Origin: an uncultured Lachnospiraceae bacterium
GTDB lineage: Bacteria > Bacillota > Clostridia > Lachnospirales > Lachnospiraceae
Length of the DNA stretch: 62,631 nucleotides
Assembly: GCA_948470905.1 (NCBI GenBank)
Contig: CAOKQK010000007.1
Coordinates: 1-62,631 of the forward strand
Direction: 5' to 3'
Shown: positions 50,979-62,465 of the stretch, piece after piece
Layout: the number at the start of each line of letters is the position of its first letter
Position numbering within the stretch: position 1 is the stretch's first letter
Position numbers and translations under genes: made by a program
Notes under the pieces: model-generated
Seen by the model: only the letters and a program-made list of their open reading frames with translations
What the model was told of the DNA's origin: nothing
Databases searched by the model: none

Positions 50979-51422
50979 CTAATGATTTGTGTCTACAATC
51001 ACAATGCTGGAATCCCCCCGACGCGCCTGTTCCAGTACAGCCTGCGCCAGTATCTGAAACGACGCATGTGAGGTAGACGCCCCTGCAATCGCGTCGATTT
51101 TCCCCTCGCCCTGCCCTTCCAATAACTGACCGGCATAGTAGCGGGTATATTCATTGGGGTAAGTTCCCTGTATATGCAGCATGGTCTGCATATAAGAATT
51201 ATCCCAGCTCTTGATGAAGCCGCTTGGGTTTTCCGCATTATACTCCACAGAGATAATGTCCCCTCCCTTCACCAGGATGGTAACATATTCCTTCCAGCCA
51301 TGGTTGAACTCAGCGGCCTGTGCCGTATAATAACCATCCTGGAGCCCTTCCTCACTGCCGCAGGACGTCAGCAGCCCTGCCGCCAACAGCAGGCTCAGGA
51401 TTATGCCAAGAATCCGTTTCAT
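50979..51422 (-). CDS. FMN-binding-domain lipoprotein
   Basis: This 147-residue protein has a lipoprotein signal ending LLTSC, so Cys near residue 21 is modified, then a small FMN-binding domain with [20 protein letters not shown], an [13 protein letters not shown] strand pair and [16 protein letters not shown], where the GASTS Ser/Thr is the likely flavin attachment site used by ApbE. The stop overlaps the next gene (chemoreceptor) start by ATGA, so it is co-translated with it. It could bring a redox-active flavin close to the receptor's outer domain. Confidence 0.83.
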
Positions 51423-53443
51423 TCACCACGCGCCTCCTTTAAAACAAACTTTTGCACCTGGGCTTGGAGCGCCCCGGCCTCTTTCTCCAGCAATCCGCTG
51501 GATTGCTCTGTCTCTCCGGCATTCTGCAGATTGCGGTCTGCTATGGCGGAAATGGAGTCGATTCGTTCCTCCATAAGCGCCAAAGCCGTTTCCTGTCCTT
51601 GTACCGCTGTCACCAGCTGATCCGAAATGGTCCTGATTTGTATGGAAACATCGGCAATCGCATGAAGGGAATCAGCAGTATCGGCAGTCAGCGCCACGCC
51701 ATTCCGTATAATTGCCTGTGTATTGTTCACCATTTCCCCTGCGCTCTGGGCAGCTAAAGCGCTCTGGGCAGCCAGCCGCTTGACCTCCCCTGCCACTACC
51801 GCGAAGCCTTTCCCTGCCTCCCCCGCATGGGAAGCCTCCACAGAGGCGTTTAGGGCAAGAATATTAGTCTGGAAAGCAATATCCTCGATATCCTTTGCAA
51901 TCTTTGTAACCTGCTTCGCATTAGTGCTGATGCTGTCCATGGCAGAAGACAAGGCAGCCATCTGTTCATTGGCAATCTCAATCCGCCGTGCGATTTCTTC
52001 GGTCTGGATACGGGTCTGACCGCTGCTTTCTGTAACATCTGCCAGCCGCTCCTTTACATGGGCTACCTCGTGAACCAGCTCCTCGGCAGAGTAATTCTGC
52101 TCCATGGACGCCTGGTGCAGCTGTGCGGACTGCCCGTTCATCTGCGCCGCCATATCAGTCAGCCGGTTTGCAGCCCCCCGGAATCCCAACAGCGTTTCGT
52201 TCATTGATTGGATAATGGTATGCAGGCTGTTGCGGATCAGCTCAAAATCACCTTTATAATCCACCTGTGGCTCCGTGCGCAGGTCGCCGCCTGCAACACT
52301 GGTCAGGACCTGCTGAATATCAGATATGTACCTGTTCATGCTTTCTACCGTAGTATCCAGCGTATGCGTCATAAGCTCCAGCTCATCCCTGCTGTGTACG
52401 GACGTCACCTCCGTATGCAGGTCGCCGCCGGAAAGCGCCACCATCCGATTCGTGACGCATTTCACCGGATGGGAAATAGAACGGGCAAACTGCAGGATAA
52501 GCAGCATGGAAATCAGCAGGCCTGCCAGGGTAGCCAAAACGGATACCAGCATGGCGCCGTTAATAAACTGGCTGTAATCAGACTTAGGGATCTGGATGAC
52601 CAGCGACCACTGGGTACCCCGGATAGGAGAAAACGCAGCCAACATTTTTTCCCCTTCAATGGAAAAATCCAACGCCCCCGTCTCCCCTGTTGTGACACGC
52701 TCTACCGCATCTCCATTTCCCCCGGTGAGCTGGACCAGCGTGCTTTGGTTGAGAACCCGGGACTGGTCCGGGTGTCCGGTAACGACGCCCTCCCGGTTGA
52801 CCATATATGCCATGCCGCTTTTCCCCAGGTTGATACTGCTGATCACGTCATTGAGAGTATCATATTTATAAACGCCCACCACATACAGAATCGTTTCTCC
52901 CTTCTCCTTCACCGGCATCCCCATGGCAACGCCCAGCTTTCCCTGATGGATCGTGGAGGAGTTCGTGGTCAGATTATCCGTTTCTTTCAAAAGAGCAAAA
53001 AAACTGCTGTCCAGGCTCGCCGGTGCGCCTTCTATCCCCTGCACCAGCCGCCCGTCAAGGCCATACAGGGCAATTGTATGGAATTCATAAATCTCCGCGG
53101 CTTCCTCCAACACCATCCTGCGGCTTTCCTCCGTTGCGGCGGCGTCCGGTATTTCCGCCCCGTTTGTATCGGCAATGGTTATTGTACCCATCCCATGGTC
53201 TGCCGCAATGGTCATCATGCGGTCAGCCAGCATATGGATGTTTGCCTCTACTGTTTTTGCCGACTGCCTTGCCATGGGCTGGAGGCTGTCCAGCAATATA
53301 TTGTTCGCCAGTGACTGCAGCGAAAAAGCCATAATCACACAGCATACGACCACAAGTATCAGGATGTTCAAGGTTGTGTTTTTTAATATTCTCCCATTCA
53401 GGCTCCGTTTCATCCCCCGGTTGGCAGAGAAGTTCGTTTTCAT
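51419..53443 (-). CDS. Methyl-accepting chemotaxis protein, dCache type
   Basis: This 674-residue receptor has a first span (about 24-45), a large extracytoplasmic dCache-like sensor (about 50-295), a second span (about 300-322), a HAMP domain ([20 protein letters not shown], about 323-375) and a coiled-coil signalling domain whose tip is [20 protein letters not shown]. It would control a CheA kinase; no cheA or cheW lies in the window. Its stop overlaps the FMN lipoprotein gene. Start 53443 has AAAGGAG upstream. Confidence 0.93.
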
Positions 53444-53842
53444 TCCCGTCGCTCCTTTTCTGAATGATTTTTTCGGAAGTTTTTTCTAAAGGTTTTTTAT
53501 GAATGACTTTTTGGAAGCAGAGGATGGAACGCATGCTCTGCCTATTGTCACAGCACAGATTATAACACAAATTACCTGTTTAAGAAAGCCCTTTTTCACA
53601 ATCAGGAATCCCGCTTCCAAATTTATGGGGCGGACTTGCTTTTCTACCTCTTATTTTATTGACATGAATGAAGGTGCATGGTATTATGACAAAGATTTGT
53701 CTGATATTTTTATAAAGAAGCCGCAGGAACAGAGCGGAGTTATATTAATTTCCTAAAGCAGCGCATTCCGGCAAAAAAACATTCCCATGTCAGGATTTGC
53801 TGCGGTAACTATGATCGGATCACCAATGTGGAGGATAGGCGT
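53444..53842. other. Divergent promoter region, about 400 bp
   Basis: It separates the chemoreceptor gene from the first hybrid kinase gene. It holds a near-consensus promoter on the plus strand (53659-53687) and a minus-strand TATAAT at 53559-53564 with a weak -35. The remaining sequence shows no RNA motif I recognise, and a short plus-strand frame at 53499-53756 lacks a ribosome binding site. Confidence 0.65.
53659..53687 (+). promoter_or_regulatory. Near-consensus sigma-A promoter for the hybrid kinase
   Basis: TTGACA, 17 bases, TATTAT, giving a transcript with a leader of about 150 bases before the kinase start at 53843. Confidence 0.8.
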
Positions 53843-56386
53843 ATGGATTATTCAAAAGGGCTTGAACAGCACAACGGTATCTGGAGCGTTCAAAATCTGG
53901 AGTCCGTTATCAATGAAGGTCTTCGCGTCGCCCTGCTGGAAGAAACCCCGGACCAGTCACTGGATGTGCTGCTGAAGCACCTGGGGAATGCCCTGAACGG
54001 GGAACGAACCTATATATTTGAACAGAACGAAACCGGCGGCGATGACAATACTTATGAGTGGGTAGCTGATGGGGTGAATCCTGAAAAGGAAAACCTTCAA
54101 AACGTGCCTCCCGAAGTGTGCGCCAGCTGGTATCAGAACTTCAGCATCGGCGGGCATATCGTCATTAAGAATCTGGAGGACATACGGGACACCGATCCCC
54201 TTCAATACGATAACCTGAAAAGGCAGGGAATCCATTCCCTTGTGGTAGTCCCCCTATATGACGGCGAGCAGATCATCGGCTTTTACGGCGTGGATAACCC
54301 TCCTGTGAAGTCGTTGGAATATGCCTCTAACATGCTCCAGACTGCGGCATATTTTATTGTATCCTCCCTGAAGCGGCGCAACCTGTTCCGGGAACTGCAA
54401 AAGCGGAGCTACAACGTCCTCCATGCCCTCAGCGTAGACTATCTGGGCATATATGAGGTTGACTTTGACACAGGCGAATGTGAGATATACCGGAACAGCA
54501 AACGGATATTCATGGACTGGCCTGCCCATTTCAGGGACGGTTATCAAGCTGCCATGGAAAAGTATATTTCCGAGTATGTAGTCCCCAGAGACCAGGAACG
54601 CCTCCGGGTCGCAACAAAAAAGGACTATGTGCTTGCCCAGCTGAGAGAAAACAAAAAATTTTCCATACGTTATCAGGTAAAAGACAGCTCCTCCGGCCTG
54701 CGGCATCTGGAAATCCACTTTTCCGCCACAGAAAAAACATCCAAGAAGAACTGTGCTATTTTTGCCCAGCGGGATGTGAACGCCGTAGTGGAACAGGAAG
54801 AAAAGAACAAGCTGGAAGCAAGGCAAAGCCTGGAGGACATTCTGGAGGGAGCAAGAACCGGCATCTGGACCATAGAGCTGGAAGACGGCTGCCCGCCAAG
54901 GATGTATGCGGATAAAACCATGCGGATCCTCCTTGGCGTCCCGGCTGGGATAGGGCCGGAGGAATGTTACCGGCGATGGTTTGAAAATATTGATCCCGAT
55001 TATGTGGAAATGGTCCAGGAAGCCGTGTCTGACATATTGGAAACCGGGCGTTCCGAGGTAATTTATCCCTGGAACCATCCAACGCTGGGAAAGATTTATG
55101 TCCGCTGTGGGGGCGTACCGGACAAAACCTTTGAAAAACAGGGCGTCTGCCTGAACGGATACCATCAGGATATCACTGAAACCATGGTGACAAGAAAGAA
55201 TCAGGAGCAGTCCATCATGGAGCTTCTGGAGAAGGTAAGACGGGCAAATTCAGCCAAAAGCGAATTTCTTTCCCATATGTCCCACGACCTGCGCACACCG
55301 ATCAACGGCATTCTTGGGATGCTTGTCATTATGGAGCAATGCCAGGAGGACCTGGAGCGCCAGAAGGACTGCCGGAAGAAAATCCGTATATCCACAGAGC
55401 ACCTGTTGTCCCTCGTAAACGATGTGCTTCAGGTAAGCAAGCTGGACAGCGGAAGGCCCGCGGCAGTAGAGGAACCCTTTGACCTCCATGACGCGCTGGA
55501 AGACTGCATCACCATTATGTCCTCCCAGGCGGAGGAAAAGGGAATCTGCCTGGATCTGGAGAAATCCGGTCTGCAGCATAACCGGGTCATCGGGAACCCG
55601 CTGCATTTAAGGCAGATCCTGATGAATGTCATTGACAACGCCCTCAAATATAACCGGCCCCACGGCTCCGTATTTGTGCAGGTTCAGGAAACCGGCATTC
55701 AGGACGGGATTGCAGACTATTGTTTCATAATCAAGGATACCGGAATCGGTATCGGGGAGGATTTCAAGGCACATATTTTTGAGCCCTTCACCCAGGAGCA
55801 TCAGGACGCAAGAACAAATTACAGCGGCACGGGGCTTGGGATGTCCATCGTAAAGAAGCTGGTAGACCAGATGGAAGGGACCATTACAATAGACAGCCAG
55901 ATCGGCACGGGGAGCACCATTCAGATCACCCTGCCCCTCCAGGTGGATGCTGCATGGAGCGAGCAGCCTGCAGAGGAGGACCCGGATACACAGGACAATG
56001 TGGCAGGAATGCGCGTCCTCCTGGTGGAAGACAATGAGCTGAACTGCGAGATTGTAGAGTACCTCCTGAAGGAAGCGGGCGCGGAGGTGACAACCGCCAA
56101 CGATGGCAAAGCCGCCGTAGACACCTTTGCAGATTCCGCCCTGGGAACCTTTGACTGCGTACTCATGGATCTGATGATGCCGATCATGAGCGGATATGAG
56201 GCAACGCGGGTCATCCGCAGCCTGAACCGGACGGATGCACAGACCATTCCCATCATAGCCCTGTCTGCGAATGCGTTTGAAGAAGACATCGCGTTGTCAA
56301 AGGACGCCGGAATGAATGACCATCTGGCAAAGCCGGTGGACATTCATAAAATGTTCAACGTTATGAACCGGTTGAGGCGCTGCTAG
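53843..56386 (+). CDS. Soluble hybrid histidine kinase with GAF/PAS-like sensors and receiver
   Basis: This protein of about 847 residues has no membrane span. In order: a GAF-like domain (about 20-175, YIFEQNETGGDD to VVPLYDGEQIIGFYGVDNPP), two PAS-like regions (about 185-310 and 330-445), a HisKA domain with the phosphoacceptor in FLSHMSHDLRTPINGILGM (about 475-493), a HATPase (NALKYN, DTGIGIG, GTGLGMSIVKK) and a C-terminal receiver (LLVEDNEL, VLMDLMMPIMSG with the Asp). ATG 53843 has GGAGG eight bases upstream. No HPt or output regulator is adjacent, so the output is unknown. Confidence 0.92.
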   Translation: MDYSKGLEQHNGIWSVQNLESVINEGLRVALLEETPDQSLDVLLKHLGNALNGERTYIFEQNETGGDDNTYEWVADGVNPEKENLQNVPPEVCASWYQNFSIGGHIVIKNLEDIRDTDPLQYDNLKRQGIHSLVVVPLYDGEQIIGFYGVDNPPVKSLEYASNMLQTAAYFIVSSLKRRNLFRELQKRSYNVLHALSVDYLGIYEVDFDTGECEIYRNSKRIFMDWPAHFRDGYQAAMEKYISEYVVPRDQERLRVATKKDYVLAQLRENKKFSIRYQVKDSSSGLRHLEIHFSATEKTSKKNCAIFAQRDVNAVVEQEEKNKLEARQSLEDILEGARTGIWTIELEDGCPPRMYADKTMRILLGVPAGIGPEECYRRWFENIDPDYVEMVQEAVSDILETGRSEVIYPWNHPTLGKIYVRCGGVPDKTFEKQGVCLNGYHQDITETMVTRKNQEQSIMELLEKVRRANSAKSEFLSHMSHDLRTPINGILGMLVIMEQCQEDLERQKDCRKKIRISTEHLLSLVNDVLQVSKLDSGRPAAVEEPFDLHDALEDCITIMSSQAEEKGICLDLEKSGLQHNRVIGNPLHLRQILMNVIDNALKYNRPHGSVFVQVQETGIQDGIADYCFIIKDTGIGIGEDFKAHIFEPFTQEHQDARTNYSGTGLGMSIVKKLVDQMEGTITIDSQIGTGSTIQITLPLQVDAAWSEQPAEEDPDTQDNVAGMRVLLVEDNELNCEIVEYLLKEAGAEVTTANDGKAAVDTFADSALGTFDCVLMDLMMPIMSGYEATRVIRSLNRTDAQTIPIIALSANAFEEDIALSKDAGMNDHLAKPVDIHKMFNVMNRLRRC

Positions 56387-56492
56387 TACATCGGACTATG
56401 GCCAAATCGACGCCCGACGGGCAATCTACTGAATTTTAGCAGCTGAGGATATGGAGGAAGTTTTGAGGTAAACTTCCAAATTTTGCAATTAG

Positions 56493-56510
56493 TGCCTGCC
56501 AGGGGCAGGC
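56493..56510 (+). other. Hairpin before the second hybrid kinase gene
   Basis: GCCTGCC pairs with GGCAGGC across AGG, 14 bases before the ATG at 56525. With a short linker to the start it may mask or mark the ribosome binding site. No U-tract follows. Confidence 0.5.
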
Positions 56511-56524
56511 ATGGGGGTATAAGT

Positions 56525-59131
56525 ATGAAAAATATTGCTTTGCCGCGTTCCTTTAAAATTGGTACTGCAGTAATTATCTGCTTAAATATTTTCGTGTTTT
56601 CTTTCCTCGGGATATCCATCAACCGCATGAGTGAAAACGCGATCAACGATATCGGCATGGCTTACATGAATGAAATGAACGAGCAGGTATCCCTGCACTT
56701 TAAAACCATCATAGAGCTCAGGCTGACCATGGCGCAATCCATAGCACACATCGCGGCAGGCGAAGAAAATTCCGGCTATGGAGCAAAGGAAGATATTGAA
56801 TATGGTGCAAGGGCAAGGCATTTTTTATGCGCTGCCCTATATTCAACCAACGGGAAAATTGAAATGATTTACGGCGATCCTGTGGAACCCAACCACCCCG
56901 AGCCGTTTTTGGAAAGCTTGCAGAATGGGGAGCGCAAAGTGTCTTCTGCCACCAACAGCATGGGAGAGAATGTTATTTTGTTCGGCGTTCCCTGCGAATA
57001 TCCCATGTCCGACGGAAGCAGGAGCCTTGCCCTGATCGTAGGTCTTTCCTCCCAATATATGGGCGAGACACTTTTCCTCGATTCAGACAGCTCCCTGACT
57101 TATTCTTTCGTCATACGGAAGGACGGCAGCTATGTTGTCCGGGATCACGGAGACTTCCATGATAATTATTTTGACAGGCTCCACAAAATATTTGACAAAC
57201 ATCCCGACGACGAGTCTTCCTGCGTTGTGGAACATCTTTCTGCCGCCATGGATGCAGACGAAGATTATTCCATCATCCTGAATGAAGGCGAATCGCGGCG
57301 CCACCTATACTGCACCAGCCTCCCCTACTGTGAATGGTATCTGGTGACGGTCCTCCCCTTTGACCGGCTGGATTATGCCATTACCGGCATGAGCACCCGC
57401 TGGCTTACGATTGTTTACGCCGCATTCTTCGCAACGATTGCCATGCTCCTGTACATATTCTGGCATTACTTAAAATTATTCAGAAAGCAGGTTTCTGAAT
57501 TGCAGCACAAAAACAAGGAAATAGATGCGGAACGGAAAGCCGCAGAAGAAGCCCGGAAGGAAGCAGAGCACGCCAATACGGCAAAGCAGGATTTCCTGTC
57601 CAGCATGAGCCACGACATACGCACCCCCATGAACGCCATAGTAGGCATGACGACCCTTGCCTTGGGCAATACGCATAATCCGGAACAGACACAGGATTAT
57701 CTGCGCAAAATCGCCCTGTCAAGCAGGCATCTTCTGGGGCTTATCAATGACGTGCTGGATATATCCAAGATTGAAAGCGGCAAAATGACGCTGAATTTGG
57801 AGCCGGTGTCGCTGAGAGATATAATGGACAGCATCGTCAATATCATGCTGCCGCAGCTTAAGGAGAAAAAACAGCAGTTCAACGCAGCCGCCTACGAAAT
57901 CCATTCGGAAAACGTATATTGTGACAGTGTGCGGCTGAACCAGATATTGATCAACCTGTTGGGAAACGCCGTCAAATTCACACCGGAGAACGGCCTTGTC
58001 CAGGTGTCTGTGTATCAGGAAGCACTGCCGGAGGATAGCTCCTGCGTCCGCACCCATTTCCTGGTGAAAGATACAGGCATTGGCATGTCAAAAGAATACC
58101 AGAAAAAAATATTTAACTCCTTCAGCAGGGAGGACAACACCCGCGTGCGGAAAACAGAAGGTTCCGGGCTGGGAATGTCCATTACCAAACATATTGTAGA
58201 CACAATGGGCGGCAGCATTACCGTCCGCAGCGAACAGGGCAAGGGCAGCGAATTCCATGTTGTGCTTGACCTGGCAAAAGCGCCAGAACCGGAGATGGAC
58301 ACAGGACTTCCTGTACGGAATATGTTGGTAGTGGACGGCGATGAACGGTTATGCGCCAATACCGTCCATTCCCTGACATCTATCGGCATCCGTTCCGAAT
58401 TCTGCCTGAGCGCCCAAAAGGCAATGGAACTGATTGCCCAACATCATGGCAAAAACGACGCTTACCAGATGGTCCTTCTGGCTTACAGCCTGCCGGATAT
58501 GGATGGAATGGAAGCGGCTCGGAAAATCCGTTCCGATTATGGCGAAAACAGCCCAACGCTGCTGCTCTCTGCCTGTGATTGGCACGAAATAGAAAAAGAA
58601 GCCAGAAAAGCGGGAATTTCCGGTTTCCTATCCAAGCCTGTGTTTAAAAGTACTTTGCTTGACTCCCTGAAAGCTTTCGCCGATAATGCCGTTGAAGAAA
58701 CCTCAGACGCCAGGGAAACAGTTGACCGGAAGCTTCAGGGGAAACATATTTTGCTGGCAGAAGATAATGAACTGAACTGGGAAGTTGCGAGAGAACTGCT
58801 TTCCGTGCTGGAACTGGAATTGGATTGGGCGGAAAACGGACAAATCTGTGTTGAGAAATTTAAGGAATCCCCTGTGGGGTATTATGACGCGATCCTTATG
58901 GATGTGCGGATGCCCGTTATGGACGGCTATGAAGCCACCGGGGTTATCCGCAGTCTGGAACGCGGGGACGCGGATATTCCCATTATCGCCATGACCGCGG
59001 ACGCATTTTCGGAAGATATCCAAAGATGTCTGGAGTGCGGCATGAACGATCATCTGGCAAAACCCATTGATATACAGGCTGTGACCTTCACATTAAAAAA
59101 GCATCTGAAATCAAAAACCCCGCGGGAATAA
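56525..59131 (+). CDS. Membrane hybrid histidine kinase with a defective and an intact receiver
   Basis: This protein of about 868 residues has a first span (about 14-34), a periplasmic-type dCache-like sensor (about 40-280), a second span (about 290-315), a coiled coil, a HisKA in FLSSMSHDIRTPMNAIVGM, a HATPase (NLLGNAVKFT, DTGIGM, GSGLGMSI), then two receivers. The first (about 590-700) reads MVLLAYSLPDMDGMEA, where Ala replaces the phospho-Asp (LLAY instead of LLD). The second (about 740-860) has VMLMD-like AILMDVRMPVMDG with the Asp. It resembles the kinase just before it. A GGGGG lies before the ATG. Confidence 0.92.
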   Translation: MKNIALPRSFKIGTAVIICLNIFVFSFLGISINRMSENAINDIGMAYMNEMNEQVSLHFKTIIELRLTMAQSIAHIAAGEENSGYGAKEDIEYGARARHFLCAALYSTNGKIEMIYGDPVEPNHPEPFLESLQNGERKVSSATNSMGENVILFGVPCEYPMSDGSRSLALIVGLSSQYMGETLFLDSDSSLTYSFVIRKDGSYVVRDHGDFHDNYFDRLHKIFDKHPDDESSCVVEHLSAAMDADEDYSIILNEGESRRHLYCTSLPYCEWYLVTVLPFDRLDYAITGMSTRWLTIVYAAFFATIAMLLYIFWHYLKLFRKQVSELQHKNKEIDAERKAAEEARKEAEHANTAKQDFLSSMSHDIRTPMNAIVGMTTLALGNTHNPEQTQDYLRKIALSSRHLLGLINDVLDISKIESGKMTLNLEPVSLRDIMDSIVNIMLPQLKEKKQQFNAAAYEIHSENVYCDSVRLNQILINLLGNAVKFTPENGLVQVSVYQEALPEDSSCVRTHFLVKDTGIGMSKEYQKKIFNSFSREDNTRVRKTEGSGLGMSITKHIVDTMGGSITVRSEQGKGSEFHVVLDLAKAPEPEMDTGLPVRNMLVVDGDERLCANTVHSLTSIGIRSEFCLSAQKAMELIAQHHGKNDAYQMVLLAYSLPDMDGMEAARKIRSDYGENSPTLLLSACDWHEIEKEARKAGISGFLSKPVFKSTLLDSLKAFADNAVEETSDARETVDRKLQGKHILLAEDNELNWEVARELLSVLELELDWAENGQICVEKFKESPVGYYDAILMDVRMPVMDGYEATGVIRSLERGDADIPIIAMTADAFSEDIQRCLECGMNDHLAKPIDIQAVTFTLKKHLKSKTPRE

Positions 59132-59153: not shown

Positions 59154-59197
59154 GTGTGCAATCCCCTCACTCACGAAGGGATTGCACACAATTTTTT
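59154..59197. terminator. Bidirectional intrinsic terminator between convergent genes
   Basis: GTGTGCAATCCC pairs with GGGATTGCACAC across a 12-base loop and is followed by ATTTTTTT, with AAAAAACAAA on the other side, serving both the hybrid kinase and the EIIC-chemoreceptor gene. Confidence 0.92.
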
Positions 59198-59273: not shown

Positions 59274-61517
59274 TTACTTCCCACGACTCATCTGTGTTTC
59301 ATTGCTTGCAGGCTCCTCCCCGCTTTCAAGGCTCTCAAGTGCATTCACTGCCAAGAGGCTTGTCTCCTCATTGAGCCGCAGCAGCTTTTGCGCCATTTTC
59401 TTGGATGCATCCGACTTATCCCGAACCTGTTCCGCCACCTTGGACGTATGGGATGTGGTTTCCACAAAGAAACGGCTGGTTGTCTGAATCTGTTCATTGA
59501 TTTGCTGCAGCTCGTCCATTACCTCTCCGCTGTGCTTGAAGACCGTATCACACTGTGCTTGAATATTGTGGATGTTCTGCACAATTTCGCCAAACAGCTC
59601 GTTGGTGTCAATCACCTGCTGCCGCCCGGTTTCTACCTGCCTCAAACTGACTTCCGACTGCTCAATCATATCAGAGGTATCCTCTTTCATCCCCTGCAGC
59701 AAGCCCTCGATATCGGAAACGGACCGCACTGTTTTTGCCGCCAGCGCTTCTATGTTGGATGCCACCACAGAAAACCCTTTGCCGTGGACACCGGCGCGCG
59801 ACGCCTCAATGGAGGCATTGAGCGAAAGAATGTTCGTTTTCCTGGATATGTCCTTGATGCTCTCCAGGATCTCCTCAATCTGCCTGCAGCGCATATTAAG
59901 CTGGCCGGATAGTTCATTGGCTTTTTGTGTGGAAAAAAAGATTTCCTCCATCTTCTGCATCGTTTGCTGCATGTTCTGCGCGCCTGCTATGGATACCTCA
60001 TTGGTCTTTTCCATATTCTGCAGGACAATTTTTATACTGTTATCCGTGTTGCCCACCGAGGTATCAATAGTCTGTATGTATTCGACGCAGGTATGCAGCA
60101 GCTGCATCTGCTTCTGCATCTGGGCAGAGAGATCATTCAGATCTCCGACGATGCTTTCCAGGACAATTGAAAAGTTTGTAATCTCCCCATTGATCTCACC
60201 TGTGGAGTTATGGATTTTCTCAACCACAGTATTCAGTGTATTTTTTAACAGCGCCGTATTGTCGTCCTTCAAGGCTTCCTTTTGCACCTCCCGCCTGTCC
60301 ATCAGACGAATAAACGGCAGATAAATCAGGATGCCAATAGCAATATTAAGCGCCTGGAGGATGCTGCCCGACAGGTGTCCGCCGGTTGCCAGATATCCGC
60401 TGACCAAAGGCGGCATCGCCCAATGAACCTCCGTTACAACCCGGGCTGCCAGACCGAGAGACATGGCACTCCACGAAACGAGCGTTATCGCCAGCGGCGT
60501 GAGCAAAAAAGGAATCAGCAAAATAGGGTTCAGAATCACAGGAAAGCCGAACAACACAATTTCATTCATGTTGAAGACCGCAAATATACCGCCCATTTTG
60601 GCGATACTGCGCATATACCGGCTCCTGGCAATAATCAACACCGCAATGATGATGCATAACGACGTACCTGCACCCCCCATAAATACAAACGTATCCAGAA
60701 AGCCCTTGCTGATAATGGCAAGCTGCCCGTCAAACGCATCGTGATTCGAGGCATACAGGTTGGTATTATGGATAAGATTCTCGCCAAAGGCGCTGACCAT
60801 AATGCTATCCATAACATTTCCGCCATGAATACCAAAGAACCAGAAAATATGGATGCCGAATACCAGAAACAAGGTTCCAAGAAGCCCGCCGCCATCAGCG
60901 GCTGAAAAAAGAAACGACAGGCCAGTATAAATCCACTCGTCAGCCCCTTTGCCGGAGGTCATCAATATAATGCCGTTTGTAAGGGCAATGCAAAAAACGG
61001 ACAGCATGACAGGGAACAGGGCGGCAAACATTTGCTGCACCTCCTCCGGCGTATCCTCCGAAATGTTAATTTTAAGGCGGGAAAATATACGATATAGCTC
61101 GGTGGCTAAAATCGCGATAAGGATAGCTCCAAAAAGCCCGCCGGAACCCAATCTGCTCAGCGAGATACCTCCATCCGCGGTTGTAACGCAAATGGTCAGA
61201 TAGGCTGATACGCTTGTAAGGGCGGAGAGCGTGCCGTTAAGTTGATATTCCTTACCAAGATAATAGCCCAGGGTCCAGGCGATCAAAATTGCCATAATGG
61301 CTGTGCTGCCCAGCCAGACCGCCCCATTTACAGCCCGGATCACCCCTCCAACCGGGGTGGACAGTCCTGCCTGTACTATGTCGATGGGCATATTGTTGAT
61401 CAGCGATGCTATGGAACCCAGGATGATTACCGGAAGCGTGATGGTAAATGCCTTTTTGATGGAAATGATGTAACGGTTTTGAAATAGCCTGTCGGCCGCC
61501 TGCAAGATGTTTTCCAT
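59274..61517 (-). CDS. PTS EIIC permease fused to a chemoreceptor signalling domain
   Basis: A single frame of 747 residues (from MENILQAADRLFQNRYIISI). Residues about 1-410 form a complete lactose/cellobiose-type EIIC: about ten spans, the FWFFGIHGGNV motif (His near 231, the substrate-phosphorylation His region of ChbC-like EIICs) and MNEIVLFGFPVILNPILLIP (Glu near 319). A linker and coiled coil (about 415-540) lead to an MCP signalling domain whose tip region is SRKTNILSLNASIEASRAGV at about 560-580, with VVASNIEALAAKTV after it. No HAMP, EIIA or EIIB is in the protein or the window. The tail has no periplasmic sensor, so the permease itself would be the sensor. AGGAGGAAGGATT precedes ATG 61517. 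Confidence 0.9.
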   Translation of the reverse strand: MENILQAADRLFQNRYIISIKKAFTITLPVIILGSIASLINNMPIDIVQAGLSTPVGGVIRAVNGAVWLGSTAIMAILIAWTLGYYLGKEYQLNGTLSALTSVSAYLTICVTTADGGISLSRLGSGGLFGAILIAILATELYRIFSRLKINISEDTPEEVQQMFAALFPVMLSVFCIALTNGIILMTSGKGADEWIYTGLSFLFSAADGGGLLGTLFLVFGIHIFWFFGIHGGNVMDSIMVSAFGENLIHNTNLYASNHDAFDGQLAIISKGFLDTFVFMGGAGTSLCIIIAVLIIARSRYMRSIAKMGGIFAVFNMNEIVLFGFPVILNPILLIPFLLTPLAITLVSWSAMSLGLAARVVTEVHWAMPPLVSGYLATGGHLSGSILQALNIAIGILIYLPFIRLMDRREVQKEALKDDNTALLKNTLNTVVEKIHNSTGEINGEITNFSIVLESIVGDLNDLSAQMQKQMQLLHTCVEYIQTIDTSVGNTDNSIKIVLQNMEKTNEVSIAGAQNMQQTMQKMEEIFFSTQKANELSGQLNMRCRQIEEILESIKDISRKTNILSLNASIEASRAGVHGKGFSVVASNIEALAAKTVRSVSDIEGLLQGMKEDTSDMIEQSEVSLRQVETGRQQVIDTNELFGEIVQNIHNIQAQCDTVFKHSGEVMDELQQINEQIQTTSRFFVETTSHTSKVAEQVRDKSDASKKMAQKLLRLNEETSLLAVNALESLESGEEPASNETQMSRGK

Positions 61518-61615
61518 AATCCTTCCTCCTAGTAGTCGACGGCAAAACAATGGCAAACCAGTGTATGGCATAAAAAACTGCCAATCCTGCCTTGCCACCG
61601 TGCCATATTGCTTTG

Positions 61616-61621
61616 ATTATA
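61616..61621 (-). promoter_or_regulatory. -10 TATAAT for the EIIC-chemoreceptor gene
   Basis: On the minus strand TGATATAATC lies about 100 bp upstream of the start codon. The -35 region (ATTCAA-like at a 17-base spacing) is poor. Confidence 0.45.
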
Positions 61622-61685: not shown

Positions 61686-61712
61686 AACAGTTCTGTGACC
61701 TGTCCTAGCTGT
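61686..61712. repeat. Hairpin element, family B, diverged short form
   Basis: AACAGTTCTGTGACCTGTCC then TAGCTGTTAC resembles the hairpin at 5780-5811 with a mismatched stem. As at 5780, it begins just past a stop codon, here that of the VWA gene. Confidence 0.65.
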
Positions 61713-62380
61713 TACCGTTTCCTCTTCTGGTAGTCGGCCTCAACCTCCTCCGACCAGCCGCTGGTGTCCAGGGCATAGGCGGCGCAGCCTGCAGCCGCCG
61801 ACCTCATGGCGTGTACGGCCCTGTCCACTGCCGCATACACCACGCCTGTCCCCTGTTCGTCGCACACGTAATTTACTGTCCTGTCACTGCGGATCCCAAA
61901 TTTCTGCGACTCCGCCACAGCGTCCATATTTGCGCCGATGAACAAAAATTCCCATCCGTACTTCTTCTGTTGCCGCTCCACCATCTTCTTTACCTTGTCA
62001 TAAGAATAGGTATGGCTGGCGTTTTCCAGGCCGTCCGTGGTAATGACGAACATGGTCTTCTCCGGTCTGTCCTCCTCCCTGGCGTATTTGTGAATGTTGC
62101 CTATGTGGTGGATCGCGCCGCCGACAGCGTCCAGCAGGGCGGTGCAGCCCCGCACATAGTACTCCTTCTCCGTCATTTTAGGAACCTTCTCCAAAGGGAT
62201 GCGGTCATGGAGCACCTCGCTCACATTGTCAAAGAGGACCGTGGACACATATGCCTCCCCTTCCTCCTTTCTCTGTCTCTCCATCATGGAGTTGAAGCCG
62301 CCAATGGTATCCGCCTCCAAACCTCCCATAGAACCGCTTCTGTCCAAGATAAATACAAGCTCTGTCAATCCTTTTGCCAT
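61712..62380 (-). CDS. VWA (von Willebrand A)-domain protein
   Basis: This protein of about 222 residues is a single VWA domain with the MIDAS motif LVFILDRSGSMGGLEADTIG, a threonine in VRGCTALLDAVGGA and VITTDGLENAS for the metal site. It is cytosolic by sequence, and its C-terminus is Lys/Arg-rich. The start MAKGLTELVF at 62380 is favoured by family length; an upstream ATG at 62392 is an alternative. Bacterial stand-alone VWA proteins of this type are often linked to stress or tellurite-resistance systems, but no partner is visible here. Confidence 0.83.
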   Translation of the reverse strand: MAKGLTELVFILDRSGSMGGLEADTIGGFNSMMERQRKEEGEAYVSTVLFDNVSEVLHDRIPLEKVPKMTEKEYYVRGCTALLDAVGGAIHHIGNIHKYAREEDRPEKTMFVITTDGLENASHTYSYDKVKKMVERQQKKYGWEFLFIGANMDAVAESQKFGIRSDRTVNYVCDEQGTGVVYAAVDRAVHAMRSAAAGCAAYALDTSGWSEEVEADYQKRKR

Positions 62381-62465
62381 CCTTTTGCCCATCCTTTCCC
62401 AACATGAATCAAGATTTAAAAAACTCAATTTGTCTCTGATGAGTCTATCATAAGGCAGCTTTCAC

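Follow-up and report, generated by a model that had tools for sequence, protein, structure and literature searches.

A lactose/cellobiose-type PTS EIIC joined directly to an MCP-type coiled-coil hairpin with an altered tip in Lachnospiraceae

The window, which is the whole stretch of 62,631 nucleotides that was analysed, carries a gene in which a lactose/cellobiose-type PTS EIIC, with both of its site residues in place, is continued in the same frame by an MCP-type coiled-coil hairpin. The fusion occurs in independent assemblies, the PTS partners of its family were not found in the genome of the window (90% complete), the EIIC and the coils are held under selection and the tip of the hairpin is altered in the window copy and eroded in the orthologues. 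The reading preferred here, given roughly even chances, is that the protein is a permease-derived sugar sensor (transceptor) with an MCP hairpin and not a PTS transporter, and that its coil once served as a CheA/CheW output whose tip has since eroded. The features of the gene are as follows.

59274..61517, minus strand: EIIC-MCP fusion gene, 747 aa, ATG start, TAA stop, open frame throughout
60276..61502, minus strand: PTS EIIC domain of the lactose/cellobiose family, aa 6-414 (TIGR00410, PF02378 and 3QNQ matches)
60825..60827, minus strand: codon of His231 (GIHGG), aligned to ChbC (3QNQ) chain position 250
60561..60563, minus strand: codon of Glu319 (NEIVLFG), aligned to ChbC (3QNQ) chain position 334
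59325..60275, minus strand: MCP-type coiled-coil hairpin, aa 415-731, following the last hydrophobic stretch directly, without HAMP
59478..60008, minus strand: MCPsignal match (Pfam), aa 504-680

The domain make-up of the protein was analysed with Pfam, NCBIfam and the closest solved structure. PTS_EIIC (PF02378) was placed at residues 22-341 (E 5e-37) and MCPsignal at residues 504-680 (E 8e-30), the latter with 104.4 bits against a curated cut-off of 34.6, while TIGR00410 (lactose/cellobiose IIC), whose cut-off is 236 bits, gave 288.4 bits over residues 6-414. By sequence the nearest EIIC of solved structure was ChbC (PDB 3QNQ), which covers residues 4-414 (E 4e-58). These results are in accordance with the sequence-only reading, which had seen a whole lactose/cellobiose EIIC and an MCP coil in one frame and had proposed a domain search for PTS_EIIC and MCPsignal; both were found in the single protein. 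The GIHGG His and NEIVLFG Glu motifs that it had pointed out are both in register with 3QNQ, and H231 and E319 are presumably the sugar-binding residues of the EIIC. Neither HAMP, whose absence had also been remarked, nor any further Pfam family was matched in the fusion at E values up to 0.01, and no Pfam match to EAL was found behind the EIIC. Hydropathy analysis gave eight hydrophobic stretches, some of them sized for two spans and all before residue 410, with none past residue 420.

The signals flanking the gene were read from the sequence.

61525..61530, minus strand: ribosome-binding site AGGAGG, strong, 7 bases before the ATG
61616..61621, minus strand: likely promoter -10 box TATAAT, extended (TGATATAAT)
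59154..59189, no strand assigned: inverted repeat with T-runs on both sides, a likely terminator common to the fusion and a hybrid kinase gene, unscored

The start Met is identical in the orthologues by alignment, and TG-N-TA(T/C)AAT boxes likewise precede the seven orthologue starts examined. A flagellar sigma-factor promoter pattern was also tried; it matched none of 26 ordinary MCP frames and no fusion, and was set aside as uninformative. No convincing terminal repeats of a mobile element were seen around the gene, and no plasmid record covered 80% of the protein. Two tandem hybrid histidine kinases on the plus strand (53828-56386 and 56483-59131) converge on the fusion gene; they are 39-42% identical to the kinase part of an EIIC-kinase fusion, L086. 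A short VWA-like protein, under the Pfam cut-offs, lies upstream of the fusion (61712-62428, minus strand), and an ordinary dCache-HAMP MCP lies 6 kb away (51419-53443, minus strand), its tip being canonical except for a His in place of R388. Further off, the minus-strand region 3968-43931 holds glucosyl transferase GtrII, EpsG, a bacterial sugar transferase, a DegT aminotransferase and an ABC transporter, and is probably a surface polysaccharide region.

The occurrence of the fusion in other genomes was surveyed by scoring, in each genome, the 2 to 7 highest-ranking candidates. The same four carriers, the genome of the window included, were recovered from 196 relatives and from 138 genomes of the genus; the G063 copy is cut by a contig end inside the EIIC. 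Among 397 genomes of the family one further carrier was found (G510), with the fusion split across two contigs. In 391 genomes of the class and 398 of the phylum, the genome of the window was the only carrier among the candidates scored, the extra part of four frames of 555-593 aa in the phylum survey (G1163, G1012, G1268 and G1230) being left unclassified. A scan of named genomes gave five loci with fusion matches, namely an Acetatifactor MAG, Mediterraneibacter agrestimuris DSM 111629, Schaedlerella arabinosiphila DSM 106076, a Lachnospiraceae MAG and a MAG fragment (88 residues matched). Full-length fusions were available from the window, G026, G041, M. agrestimuris and S. arabinosiphila, all separate assemblies and the last two isolates. 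Pfam found PTS_EIIC and MCPsignal in all four full-length orthologues; the MCPsignal score was 104 bits for the window copy, 65-74 for these orthologues and 94 for the G510 fragment.

An assembly artefact or a chance join of two genes, which the sequence-only reading had named as one objection, is refuted by the five full-length copies, which share one junction although they come from separate assemblies (two of isolates), and may be practically dismissed. Another of its objections, that close relatives would encode the EIIC and MCP parts separately without a fusion, failed as well, no such relative being seen in the surveyed genomes. The survey it had proposed for the same fusion elsewhere gave full-length fusions in four other assemblies, and the fusion is taken as genuine.

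The conservation of the protein was then compared part by part, with the tip core defined as below.

59727..59852, minus strand: hairpin tip core, aa 556-597; among orthologues only the C-terminal tail is less conserved

Set against the four full-length orthologues, the window copy was 88-91% identical in the EIIC, 74-81% in the coils and 52-62% in the tip core (64% in the tip core against the G510 fragment). The corresponding dN/dS values were 0.12-0.15, 0.17-0.28 and 0.48-1.15 (tip core against G510, 0.41). Among the orthologues alone they were 0.14-0.18, 0.20-0.73 and 0.35-4.8, the last with small dS, and the contrast of tip and coil was weaker there than with the window copy. Invariant positions over the five copies numbered 344 of 414 in the EIIC, 161 of 247 in the coils and 18 of 42 in the tip core; the difference between tip and coils gave a Fisher p of 0.009, a value which ignores kinship and concerns a region picked after inspection. 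Invariance was lower again in the last 27 residues (22%), partly owing to the greater length of the window copy, by 15 residues. Ordinary MCPs show the reverse order, that is a tip better conserved than the coils: in the control pairs the tip was 62-93% and the coils 35-73% identical, and the tip stood above both coils and sensor in all eight distinct pairs. This control started from 26 frames, of which 16 dropped out for want of a hit at 1e-30 or because identity was below 35% or coverage below 60%, and its ten rows include two duplicates and are best hits, not proven orthologues.

The eroded tips of the orthologues and their coil dN/dS of up to 0.73 are what a decaying gene, a former chemoreceptor heading for loss, would show. 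This explanation is nevertheless quite improbable, as none of the five full-length copies has a frame break, EIIC dN/dS stays at 0.12-0.18 in ten of their ten pairs, and divergence between genera is low, as after transfer and retention.

The tip residues were compared with those of 44 ordinary MCPs picked by similarity to residues 481-700 of the fusion. The Tsr numbering and the CheA/CheW-contact and trimer-contact roles given to these residues are our assumption. At position 391 all six fusion tips have Val (V577 in the window copy), where the ordinary MCPs have E (38), S (3) or D (3). The window tip is further altered at R559 and has K560 at the position of Q374, which is Q in 40 of the 44. 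The losses are greater in the orthologues: all five tips lack R388 (R in 41 of 44 ordinary MCPs, H or N in the other three), G395 (G in 43) and N376 (N in 35), all five have T for I377 (I or L in 43), and four of the five lack L380 (L in 41). T375, E385, G393, F396, V398 and A400 are kept in all six fusion tips, and the window copy retains N376, I377, L380, N381, E385, R388 and G395. The tip was called recognisable in the sequence-only reading, and so it is, but it is not a normal one in the window copy and is more altered in the orthologues. That reading had also held that an MCP tail without a conserved tip on alignment would speak against it; such loss was found in the five orthologue tips and by half in the window copy.

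Whether these tips could reach CheA was considered together with the chemotaxis genes of the carriers. In the genome of the window Pfam found CheA, CheW, CheB, CheR, CheC, CheD, a CheY-like receiver and a sigma factor, along with 25 MCPsignal matches, the fusion included. All four genus carriers had a CheA-sized frame with a CheW domain (719-734 aa), as did the two named carriers (698 and 711 aa), and each of these six had additional CheW matches; G510 lay outside this comparison. The gene set of the window's genome, the near-canonical window tip and the place of the window EIIC as sister to the other five MCP fusions (94/80 in the EIIC tree) favour a true chemoreceptor, with the EIIC as sugar sensor and the MCP tip in direct control of CheA at least in the species of the window, the erosion in relatives being later. 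Set against this are V577, where every ordinary MCP has E, S or D, K560 in place of the usual Q, and the low likeness of the tip core (52-62%) in four carriers whose genomes hold CheA-sized frames with a CheW domain as well, which leaves the chemoreceptor as a tentative alternative, somewhat unlikely on balance. Direct coupling of the fusion to CheA is doubtful. The residues kept by the window copy make such coupling possible for that copy, and the lost tip contacts would argue against a CheA output in the other carriers. The straight control of CheA proposed from the sequence is accordingly weakened by the loss of contact residues in the orthologues, but keeps some ground in the window copy, where most of them persist.

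The PTS partners of the carriers were searched for in the lactose-type EIIA (PF02255) and PTS_IIB (PF02302) classes. Lactose-type EIIA was found in none of the six carrier genomes; PTS_IIB was found in none of the four genus carriers (84-97% complete) and in both named carriers, or two of six in all. The fusion EIIC was the sole PF02378 match in each of the four genus carriers, whereas the named carriers had 9 and 4. The absence of EIIA and EIIB from the window, seen in the sequence-only reading, thus extends for PF02255 and PF02302 to the whole genome, which is 90% complete. The fusion is probably no working PTS transporter, as the searches of the cell's genome gave no EIIA and EIIB to match it. 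Sensing would therefore be the better reading than PTS transport, given that the genus carriers have no lactose-family EIIA, PTS_IIB or second PTS_EIIC. It had been proposed earlier that missing partners would be compatible with sensing rather than transport, and a fusion that is real, found in independent genomes and without PTS partners of its family agrees with this. EI was found in all six carrier genomes, among them G000:C43, G026:C1, G041:C17 and G063:C27, where the fusion is the only PTS_EIIC found. The EI of G000 contains GSVNSHTAILAR, which we take to be probably its active-site stretch.

That the permease acts as a facilitator, or uses EIIA and EIIB of another class, with a coil that only dimerises or positions the protein, is an unlikely explanation. 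The EIIC is the best-kept part (88-91%), retains His231 and Glu319 and is accompanied by EI throughout, all of which suits a facilitator; the lack of lactose-type EIIA in any carrier, the lack of PTS_IIB and of another PTS_EIIC in the genus, and the lack of a neighbour gene common to the loci do not.

The EIIC of the fusion was placed among its relatives in Clostridia using 137 EIIC rows, which were selected by score and frame length and are related to each other. They comprised 69 with EAL, 57 stand-alone, 6 MCP fusions, 2 with histidine kinase and 3 with something else. EAL labels came from a local profile, and the three EIIC-EAL rows checked were all confirmed by Pfam; for one of the six MCP rows (L004) the contig ends before the coil and the label follows from a 90% EIIC. 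EIIC-EAL fusions are thus common in these Clostridia. Of the two kinase rows, L086 (G315:C1), from the same family, carries EIIC, histidine kinase (HisKA, HATPase_c) and receiver, and L203 (G945:C1), from another family of the class, carries EIIC and histidine kinase (HisKA, HATPase_c) in a frame that holds only the later part of the EIIC. A Pro after the NE motif was present in 3 of the 66 EAL fusions whose motif could be read, in 51 of 56 stand-alone EIICs and in none of the six MCP fusions, a strong trend, although these rows are related and the p-value is therefore not to be relied on. Its absence, as in 63 of the 66 readable EAL fusions, may be a mark of sensor EIICs. As a strict mark of transporters the Pro was rejected, because 3QNQ (ChbC) itself has NEM; the five stand-alone EIICs without it include L017, whose motif was mis-read (actually SEPIVFG), and L131, probably a fusion whose frame is broken.

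A tree built from 79 EIIC rows placed the MCP fusions in one clade (100/100), which grouped with stand-alone EIICs (100/99) outside the EAL groups. The tree has a midpoint root only, and three EAL rows branch beside the group of MCP fusions and stand-alone EIICs. An output swap from an EIIC-EAL ancestor was not supported by this tree, although the uncertain root and the three adjoining EAL rows leave such a swap some likelihood.

The surroundings of the fusion were compared all against all over nine loci. None shared a neighbour gene with the window, and no neighbour gene occurred in more than two loci at above 31% identity. A gene 85% alike over 408 aa adjoins the fusion in G041 and lies about 3 kb away, inverted, in G063; another, 60% alike, lies 8 kb from the fusion in G026 and adjoins it in the L116 fragment. 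Upstream of the gene the longest stretch of DNA likeness measured about 270 bases (G026 and L116); downstream it was about 200 (M. agrestimuris and S. arabinosiphila). For the window copy likeness to the other loci starts 18 bases before the ATG. Between M. agrestimuris and S. arabinosiphila dS was 0.054 for the EIIC part, 2.51 for CheA and saturated for EI. The window gave 0.51 for EIIC, saturation for CheA and 2.62 for EI against M. agrestimuris, and 0.50, 2.03 and 1.68 against S. arabinosiphila; in these comparisons the CheA pairs (38-44% identity) are maybe not true orthologues, and the EI pairs are 58-72% alike. The fusion gene has probably moved between genera, transfer being the simplest reading. 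A new way of signalling, in which a transporter-derived sugar sensor uses the MCP coil to address some partner that is neither CheA nor CheW, as a one-gene unit spreading between Lachnospiraceae genera, is possible, though somewhat unlikely.

For the preferred reading, a permease-derived sugar sensor, the following course of events is proposed. A lactose/cellobiose-type EIIC would have become a membrane sugar sensor when its end was joined directly to the coiled-coil hairpin of an MCP. Binding of a disaccharide or a similar ligand in the EIIC dimer would bring about a conformational change, and with it a change in how the dimeric coil is pitched or packed; the dimer, the ligand binding, the conformational transfer and the final output are what we infer for this protein. 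The coil would be a former CheA/CheW-coupled output, and weak coupling may persist in the window copy. In the other carriers the tip, which contacts CheA, CheW and neighbouring receptors, would have been largely freed from selection, and the coil there would then most likely be a dimer stalk or a docking platform for another partner.

The fusion was also compared with known systems. Like methyl-accepting chemotaxis proteins it scores above the curated MCPsignal cut-off; unlike them it has an EIIC for a sensor, no HAMP, and a tip that is altered in all six copies and, in five of them, eroded. ChbC/CelB (PDB 3QNQ) aligns with its EIIC nearly end to end and shares both site residues, but the fusion adds about 330 residues of coil, and no EIIA or EIIB partner of the family was found in its genome. 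The EIIC-EAL proteins have the same kind of EIIC, likewise followed on its C-terminal side by a signalling output in the cytoplasm; that output is EAL and not an MCP coil, and the EIICs of the MCP fusions form a separate clade outside the EAL groups. In the accessible parts of the literature, PTS_EIIC is described as a rare domain of c-di-GMP proteins (PMC8846402), and Ks-Amt5 as an ammonium transporter fold which has lost transport and drives a fused histidine kinase without HAMP (PMC5764959). Ks-Amt5, as far as that text goes, resembles the fusion in using a transporter fold as sensor with the output attached directly without HAMP; it differs in both transporter and output and has been tested experimentally, whereas the fusion is known from sequence. 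The accessible text of PMC4996493 gives a FRET change of E. coli EIIC-Glc domains on glucose even without EI, and deals with E. coli chemotaxis to PTS sugars by way of EI and CheA. The fusion would likewise connect PTS sugars with chemotaxis, but in E. coli the connecting part is believed to be EI, acting at ordinary receptor complexes, and not a fused EIIC. Phosphorylation-free sensing by the fusion is plausible by analogy with EIIC-Glc (PMC4996493) and Ks-Amt5 (PMC5764959), in so far as these texts were accessible. No EIIC-MCP protein was found in print in the literature on EIIC or PTS_EIIC with chemoreceptors and on transporter-chemoreceptors, subscription papers being mostly outside reach. 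The novelty claimed earlier for a chemoreceptor built on an EIIC holds to that extent, but PTS_EIIC as an input of c-di-GMP proteins is already known from the accessible part of PMC8846402.

The change of a transporter into a receptor has usually been argued from few cases, such as ammonium transporters with kinases. The EIIC family offers a natural series of stand-alone, EIIC-EAL, EIIC-histidine kinase and EIIC-MCP proteins, the last with an output that is seemingly changing or being lost. An annotated "MCP domain" need not imply CheA control, and the fusion provides a direct test case for whether substrate binding by an EIIC can, without phosphorylation, drive a coil.
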